64,000 nt of DNA from Apus apus (Eukaryota > Chordata > Aves > Apodiformes > Apodidae): positions 34,853,318-34,917,317 of the forward strand of contig NC_067285.1 of the NCBI RefSeq assembly GCF_020740795.1. The letters are read 5' to 3'. Positions 33,501 to 36,500 of the stretch are shown one piece after another; the first letter of the stretch is position 1; each line of letters starts with the position of its first letter. The notes below the pieces were generated by a model, which saw only the letters and a list, made by a program, of their open reading frames with translations, was not told where the DNA came from and made no database searches. The position numbers and the translations under genes are program-made.

Positions 33501-36500
33501 TCTCCATGTCCCACCCAGTCACACATCCCCTCACTCACAGTCCCACTCACACCCACCACTCACTCTTTTCTCACTCACACCATTCACTCACTCTCACCTC
33601 CCACTCAAACTGTGCACTCATGGTCCCACTCACACTCTCCATTCACACCCTCCACTCACTCTTTTCTCACTCACACCCTCCACTCACTCTCCTGTCCCAC
33701 TCACGCCCTCCACTCACTCTCCTGTCCCACTCACTCTCCTGTCCCACTCACGCCCTCCACTCACTCTCCTGTCCCACTCACGCCCTCCACTCACTCTCCT
33801 GTCCCACTCACTCTCCTGTCCCACTCTCCTGTCCCGCTCACGCCCTCCACTCACTCTCCTGTCCCACTCACACCCTCCACTCACTCTCCTGTCCCACTCA
33901 CGCCCTCCACTCACTCTCCTGTCCCACTCATGCCCTCCACTCACTCTCCTGTCCCACTCACTCTCCTGTCCCACTCACTCTCCTGTCCCACTCATGCCCT
34001 CCACTCACTCTCCTGTCCCACTCACTCTCCTGTCCCACTCACACCCTCCACTCACTCTCCTGTCCCACTCACGCCCTCCACTCACTCTCCTGTCCCACTC
34101 ACGCCCTCCACTCACTCTCCTGTCCCACTCACTCTCCTGTCCCACTCATGCCCTCCACTCACTCTCCTGTCCCACTCACTCTCCTGTCCCACTCACTCTC
34201 CTGTCCCACTCACACCCTCCACTCACTCTCCTGTCCCACTCACACCCTCCACTCACACCCTCCACTCACTCTCCTGTCCCACTCCCACCCCTCATTCCCA
34301 CCCCCCCTTCCTGTGCCTCATGCCAAGGCCACACGCTCGTGCTTACGGAGCAGCCCTCCCGGCTGCTGGAGGGGGCTGGGTTCCCAGCAGCAGGGTGATC
34401 TGGAGGTGGTAAGTCACACACAGCTATGCCCAGTAACTAACCAGCTGAGGCAGAGGCATTATTGCCAGAGTCTGCAACTTGGGCTGGACCAGAAATACAC
34501 TGGGAATCTCCAGCAGCACCCTGGCCTGTTCGTGTCCCTCCAGCTTTAGACTGAAGTTGAGCCCTTTGCTCAGGTAAGAACTCTCAGTCATCTCAGTGGA
34601 ATCATTTTTAATTCAGTTTTTCAAGACAAGCCTTGTTGCTCTGCAATGCCTGAGGAGTTTATCCCTTCAGCTGGTGGTTTAGAGGGCTTGTTCCACTACC
34701 ATGGATTAGAGATGCTGAAGAGCTACGTAATTTAATACACATTAAAGAATGCAAATTGTGCCACAGCCAAGAGGCCAGGTGACTCTCTCTCTCTCTCTCT
34801 CTCCTCCATCTCTTTACTTGCCCGTGCAAAGTCAAAGTGGGGTTCATACTGTCCTCCCACTCCATAATTTGCCACCTGAAAAAGAAAACACAGCGCTGGT
34901 GAAGAAGAAAGAGGTGAAGACAGGAACCAGGACTTACCCTTCCAAAATCAAAATGAGGCTCATACTGGCCTCCTACTCCATAGTTGGCTACCTACAGTGA
35001 AAGGAGAAGCAGAAAAGCTAGTAAAGCAGTAGTTTATCCAGACAAGAACTTGACACTGTTCTACAAGCTTTCCACAGGTGAAGGTTAAAATTCAAGGCCC
35101 AGGAAATGACCAGTCTCTGGCAGAACTGAGCTGCACCCACACAGCCAGTGCCACCCACAGCTCTGACCTCACCCAGGGGAGGAGCTGAGCTTTAGGGGCT
35201 TAGCCCTTCCCTCTGCCTGGACACCAGCTCCCAGCAAAGCCCCAGCTGAGCATTCCCAGGGCTGGCTTTCCCTAAGAGCTCTTCTTCCACCCCAGCTGAG
35301 CAGCAGGGACACTCTCTGGTACCTCCCTGGGGCAGAACAATCTTTTCCTTCTGTAACAACATTACAAGCTACATGCTCTTCAAAATGGGCCGTGAAGCTT
35401 TGACATCATCCAAGTTTAAATCACTTTTTGATCTCTATGTCAATAAAAAAGGAGCCACTGTCTTTAGTTGACTGGTGTTTTTTTTTAATTTTATTTTTTT
35501 TCCATCTCTGTGTATCCATAACCTCAATTTTTTTCAAGCAGACACCTGGGCAAGTTTCCCATCAGGAGCTGAGATGCAGTTAGCACAGTAGTGCAACAGC
35601 TTTCAGGCCCCACCTTCTAGGTGTCCCACTTTCTAGGGATTCACATTGTTCACAAGCAGAGAAGCAGCTGTTCAGGGAGGCTGTTAAGAGCCTCAAGCAA
35701 ATTAATATAATTAAGTACTTCTCAACACAATTCCCTCCAGCTGCAGGGACAGCCAGGCTTTCCCACATCACAGACTGGCCTCCTAGGACCAAGGACAGGA
35801 TGGCAAATCTAAACACCTCTTCAGTCCTCAAGTGTCAGTCAGGCTGAACCTTTTACTCTCCCTAGAGCAGCAAATCTGACCCTGCAGCAATGAAACTGAT
35901 TTTATTAGTGCAAATCAAAAGGAACCACACCCATCTGGAGCTGGAGCTGTCACTGTCTCTCCTATCTCACTGAAGGAAGCCACCTCACACTGAAGGAAGT
36001 GCTGCTCTGCAAAGACCACTTCCTTTCTTCCTCCCTCCAGAAAACCCTGTCACTCTTTCCTGGGCCTGGAATCAAATCCCCCATCAAAACCTCAGTGCTG
36101 GGGCTGAAGGAGCTTTAGGAGCCACCTCCCCAGCAGCACCCCAGAGTGCTGCACACAAAGCCACCCAAGCCTGAGCTGCCATTCCCCCCCCCCTTGTTCC
36201 AAGAGCCTACCTGTAGTTCTTCTGCTGTGGAGACATCCAGGCCTGTCAGGTCCTGTATCCTGGTGTTAATGCGAGACACCACGGGGCTCTCATAGCCAGA
36301 CAGCCAAGCACTAAGGAGGGGGGGAAATTATTCAGGTGTGGTGGTCACAGGTAGCAAGCCAGCAATACAAAAGCAGCATCAGGAAGTACTTAGAATTTAA
36401 GACGATTTTTTAAAATATATATACATGTCAAGAATTTGGTAGGATGAGCAGAAATATTTCCAGGGCATGAGAAAGGCCTGCATGTCATTCATAATTGTGT

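Follow-up and report, generated by a model that had tools for sequence, protein, structure and literature searches.

Collagen prolyl 4-hydroxylase I is a major enzyme for stable collagen, and exon choice is already known to vary the subunits of its family. The α(I) and α(II) subunits have two variants each, those of α(I) altering a hairpin loop and those of α(II) the βII-βIII loop, according to the part of PMC9676403 available to us, and the available parts of three further papers (PMC11868403, PMC6821156, PMC5224494) give P4HA1 splicing as the 9a/9b (10a/10b) pair only. In the window, that is, the whole 64-kb stretch of Apus apus DNA analysed here, P4HA1 also contains two adjacent 54-nt exons, A and B, with almost the same coding content, including the HxD iron ligands. 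Does this pair add another place at which exons are chosen in the family and, if so, what has kept both copies? Such a choice, if true, would be placed on the iron-binding strand itself, whereas the known variants change substrate loops, and an old pair with near-identical protein and fully diverged silent sites would provide a clean natural experiment on what maintains tandem exons, protein diversity or the control of splicing. The pair is not mentioned in the literature searched, and its exon peptide sequences gave no text match there. Two surveys of mutually exclusive or homologous exons (PMC4465641, PMC5740500) name neither P4HA1 nor P4HA2 in their main texts. The reading that we favour, with moderate confidence, is that A and B arose by an old tandem duplication of the HxD exon and serve as functional, mutually exclusive alternatives, which would give P4HA1 two clusters of this kind.

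The P4HA1 locus and its exons

In keeping with a bird genome, a feather-keratin probe gave 129 matches, at up to 90% identity, in the 1.10-Gb assembly; a hen lysozyme probe gave none, a result that carries no weight. Comparison of a P4HA1-like probe with the 64-kb window placed P4HA1 on the minus strand, with coding exons from about 56821 to 30466. The features on which the argument turns are these:

43343-43413, minus strand: alternative exon of the known (9a/9b) type, 71 nt
42178-42248, minus strand: alternative exon of the known (9a/9b) type, 71 nt
36211-36310, minus strand: upstream exon, 100 nt, ending ...STAEELQ
34938-34991, minus strand: exon A, 54 nt, phase 0-0, HxD iron ligands, GT donor (GTAAGT)
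34876-34937, minus strand: A-B intron, 62 nt, candidate branch adenosines at 34915, 34900 and 34897
34822-34875, minus strand: exon B, 54 nt, phase 0-0, donor GCAAGT
32098-34821, minus strand: intron 3' of B, 2,724 nt, with tandem arrays
32032-32097, minus strand: downstream exon, 66 nt, matching P4HA2 exon 12b in position and length
31695-31627, about 31044-30949 and about 30534-30463, minus strand: last three coding exons of P4HA1

The spliced form containing 9b and A matches the 2OG-Fe(II) oxygenase catalytic domain with its HxD motif (Pfam PF13640, E 8.7e-16), and a stretch of 71 residues has human P4HA2 as its top PDB hit (7zsc, E 5.5e-28). A catalytic-domain probe gave at least 17 matches in the swift's own genome, seven in P4HA1, five in P4HA2 (contig C14), three in P4HA3 (contig C1) and two weak ones elsewhere, and among them no retrocopy was seen from which the expressed exon could be read. 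Searches of prokaryote and viral contig collections for stray vertebrate relatives returned two Phenylobacterium loci at 39% identity and zero viral matches.

Two interchangeable copies of the HxD exon

A and B are adjacent and homologous, have the same length and phase, and can replace each other without disturbing the frame; neither contains a stop or a frame error. A preliminary description of this DNA had reported two 54-nt phase-0 exons encoding the same 18 residues bar one Gly/Ala difference, and minus-strand translation at the coordinates given there agrees: 17/18 residues are equal, HxD is present in each, and both end in [G/A]R. A recount likewise reproduced its figure of 11 differing bases in 54, of which 10 are silent and one changes Gly to Ala. 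With a P4HA1 probe, E values in the window were 1.5e-6 for A and 1.3e-7 for B, and the occurrence of the two copies is not a matter of chance.

The splice sites of both exons appear plausible. Each has an AG acceptor with a pyrimidine tract (...CTGTAG for A, ...TTTCAG for B), recognised by sequence only, and each is followed by a donor, GTAAGT after A and GCAAGT after B (34821-34816), the latter a GC donor as against GT at the other P4HA1 donors examined, from 9a to exon 14. The donor of A is predicted to pair with U1 at -9.6 kcal/mol and that of B at -6.9 kcal/mol, and six other donors measured range from -5.6 to -10.7; as the weakest of these belongs to the downstream 66-nt exon and lies below B, low U1 pairing alone is no mark of an alternative exon. 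The junction coordinates proposed earlier proved consistent, the upstream exon ending at 36211 and the downstream one starting at 32097, and the splice forms with A, with B, with both or with neither, each combined with 9a or 9b, are open and in frame in eight of eight cases. Skipping both exons removes the HxD ligands and including both gives the motif twice, and since these two forms also stay in frame, exclusivity would have to be maintained without protection by the reading frame.

A short intron that may favour exclusive use

The intron between A and B measures 62 nt, a length near 60 nt that does not strictly prevent splicing; the remaining seven introns of P4HA1, counted from 9a onwards, measure 336-5,867 nt. 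Its interior adenosines lie 3, 4, 23, 38 and 41 nt from the donor of A, the last three of these being the candidate branch adenosines 34915, 34900 and 34897. A donor-to-branch distance of <50 bp is taken as a mark of potential steric interference, and was found in 57 human tandem-exon clusters (9%), in the part of PMC5740500 available to us. Every interior adenosine of the A-B intron lies at most 41 nt from the donor, below that distance, so direct A-to-B splicing should be hindered. We infer that the two exons are probably used in a mutually exclusive manner, with one copy in each mature mRNA. Like the sterically exclusive tandem exons described in that part of PMC5740500, A and B have a spacing that should disfavour direct joining; here exclusivity is a prediction from the sequence, and the both-in and both-out forms stay in frame.

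Age of the duplication

Nei-Gojobori counting gives 10 differences between A and B over 12 synonymous sites and one over 42 nonsynonymous sites, which bears out the earlier suggestion that both copies appear to be under selection. Same-exon comparisons between P4HA1 and P4HA2 give synonymous differences of 6.5/11.2 for A and 10/11.5 for B, and 9a against 9b gives 13.4/16; although the counts are small, coming from only 18 codons, the silent sites of A and B are saturated and within the range of the P4HA1-P4HA2 and 9a-9b comparisons. Saturated silent sites together with almost unchanged residues suggest an old duplication and constraint on both copies. At codons with the same residue in A and B, five of seven fourfold and four of nine twofold sites differ; for a neutral distance of 0.4, divergence at least this great has a probability of 0.0075, and for one of 0.6, of 0.050. 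Chicken and zebra finch are separated by a neutral distance of about 0.4. Taken with these 16 sites in one genome, that distance points to a duplication that probably predates living birds.

Protein difference or splicing control?

The residue that distinguishes A from B aligns with Ser434 of human C-P4H-II (7zsc), just before the βII-βIII loop. In that enzyme the iron ligands are His430, Asp432 and His501 and the βII-βIII region runs from Arg435 to Gly448, according to the part of PMC9676403 available to us. Both exons end at the Arg with which the loop begins, and the loop itself is not encoded by either. Gly at the position equivalent to Ser434 is predicted to make the loop less rigid at its base.

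The mechanism that we propose begins with an internal tandem duplication, long ago, of the 54-nt exon for the HxD ligands of collagen prolyl 4-hydroxylase α(I). Proximity of the A donor to every candidate branch adenosine would hinder A-to-B splicing sterically, and the upstream exon would join either A, which would then be spliced over B to the 66-nt exon, or else B. An mRNA lacking both would stay in frame but lose the iron ligands, and its subunit would be dead; inclusion of both would yield a duplicated motif. With a good GT donor on A and a GC donor on B, the ratio of the two forms could be tuned. The Gly/Ala exchange, one residue before the βII-βIII substrate loop, would be the sole difference between the products, so its enzymatic effect is expected to be modest, through the flexibility of the loop hinge, and the selective value of the pair may come partly from secure or regulated inclusion of the catalytic exon. 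A bolder version, which we put forward tentatively as a possibility short of even chances, is that birds, and perhaps other sauropsids, have a two-by-two set of α(I) subunits, in which the choice of hairpin by 9a/9b is combined with that of the βII-βIII base by A/B; the latter choice would be older than living birds and would adjust, via a GT/GC donor switch, either the substrate lid at its hinge or the level of active enzyme.

The preliminary description had stressed two catalytic subunits. Its tandem duplication, its constraint and the known neighbouring pairs all stand, but the stress on two subunits is weakened by the identity of 17 of 18 residues, which suggests that what is gained may be control of splicing and not a pair of enzymes with different kinetics. 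To that description are added the saturated silent divergence, the 62-nt intron, which should favour exclusivity, and the GC donor of B. With the rest of the exon identical, a regulatory benefit, whether secure inclusion or a GT/GC switch, is a serious rival to a benefit at the protein level. In its strict form this rival holds that A and B are both in use but their one-residue difference is of little consequence, and that the second copy is a splicing safeguard or level control for the iron-ligand exon. The near-identity of the residues over saturated silent sites agrees with it, as do the in-frame subunit without HxD ligands that would result from skipping both exons, the weaker predicted U1 pairing of B's GC donor relative to A's, and the next intron with its many sense-strand GTGAGT motifs. 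This last excess is part of a tandem array, however, and is overstated by a shuffle blind to repeats, and the lone residue change falls at the base of a loop that is also splice-varied in P4HA2, which hints at a meaning for the protein. We regard this strict form as rather unlikely, though worth keeping in view, and retain the reading of A and B as a functional exclusive pair.

The motif in question is concentrated in the intron after B (32098-34821), where arrays at about 32325-32868 and about 33623-34293 are rich in sense-strand GTGAGT. The intron has 75 copies in the sense orientation and one in the antisense, against 2.6 expected from a mononucleotide shuffle that ignores repeat structure; the introns 9b-10, 9a-9b and 10-A have 3, 0 and 0, respectively. 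Twelve of the motifs read AGG|GUGAGU, a likeness to 5' splice sites, and the arrays might act as U1 decoys. An antisense open frame of 621 aa (32547-34409, plus strand) runs over the tandem arrays and is of low complexity (H/S/P/T/L); it is most likely a by-product of the array and not a gene.

Is each copy constrained?

Were one copy unconstrained, about 12.6 nonsynonymous changes would be expected at 0.3 substitutions per site, and one is seen in both copies together (P(<=1) about 5e-5); with 0.1 per site, 4.2 would be expected, and P(<=1) is 0.078. These figures argue for purifying selection on both copies, less strongly for A by itself should it have taken few of the changes. With P4HA2 as outgroup three changes fall on A, five on B and three are unplaced; P4HA2 and P4HA3 are too deep as outgroups for the polarity of A/B changes to be trusted. 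A neutral copy with three changes would show no more than one amino-acid replacement with a probability of 0.20, and a copy with six changes with a probability of 0.007; were only three changes its own, constraint on that copy would thus be unprovable.

It is here, with a mere 18 codons and perhaps few changes on one copy, that A (or B) could be a silent fossil, an old duplicate rarely or never included in the mRNA. Against this stand the saturated silent sites with a single residue changed and no stop or frame error, and the intact pairs of splice sites on both exons, and we consider a fossil improbable. The pair is real and, judging from these features, probably functional.

Only one genome is at hand, yet neither an assembly artefact nor a young duplication confined to this lineage, its silent sites having changed unusually fast, is at all probable given 11 differences, saturated silent sites, dissimilar flanks, a region unique in the assembly among the best candidates scored, and a window without N. 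The introns flanking A and B are no more alike than shuffled sequences, the observed scores being reached by 45/300 and 44/300 shuffles. A 281-base query spanning both exons had itself as its sole match in the 1.1-Gb genome, among the best candidates scored, and the window holds zero N; an assembly artefact or a second locus was thus unsupported.

Comparison with the known P4HA pairs

Both neighbouring systems named in the preliminary description are present in this genome. The mutually exclusive 9a/9b exons of P4HA1, reported in the parts of the literature available to us, lie 1,094 nt apart here. Known from mammals, they resemble A/B in being homologous tandem exons of the same gene, and they alter a loop of the catalytic domain, but they form a separate cluster, differ in many residues, and change the hairpin loop, in the part of PMC9676403 available to us, rather than the HxD strand. 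The closest analogue is the 12a/12b pair of P4HA2, the gene of α(II), whose splice variants change the βII-βIII loop in that part of PMC9676403: tandem alternative exons again, at the next exon position and with a short intron. The pair differs from A/B in that its members measure 60 and 66 nt and differ in much of the loop, whereas A/B duplicate the preceding exon and differ in one residue. In the swift's P4HA2 (G000:C14, about 1724318-1724511), 12a (RPFDSTLKSEGNRLATFLNY) and 12b are 68 nt apart, and adenosines of their intron lie 49 and 55 nt from the donor, at or past the <50-bp distance. The 54-nt exon itself occurs once each in the fetched portions of the genome's own P4HA2 (8,774 bases) and P4HA3 (5,313 bases). 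A 12a-like exon in P4HA1 was also considered, and a 12a peptide had no match above 20 bits in the 64-kb window.

The 66-nt exon of P4HA1 (32032-32097, minus strand) and P4HA2 12b (G000:C14, about 1724446-1724511) begin with the same 24 bases, silent sites included. The rest of the two exons agrees at 23 of 42 bases and the upstream introns are unlike, and human P4HA2 differs over those first 24 bases (NDERDTFK against KDEPDAFK). Agreement of all eight codons at saturation has a chance of about 0.001, and a short gene conversion between P4HA1 and P4HA2 is a possible cause.

Neighbouring features of the window

Open frames at 63060-63491 (plus strand) and 4165-4725 (minus strand) had no Pfam match and look like remnants of common bird repeats, presumably CR1-like. 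Another open frame, at 14096-14500 (minus strand), matches PLA2G12 in Pfam (PF06951, E 1.9e-32) and marks a neighbouring group XII phospholipase A2 gene, which we take to be probably PLA2G12B.
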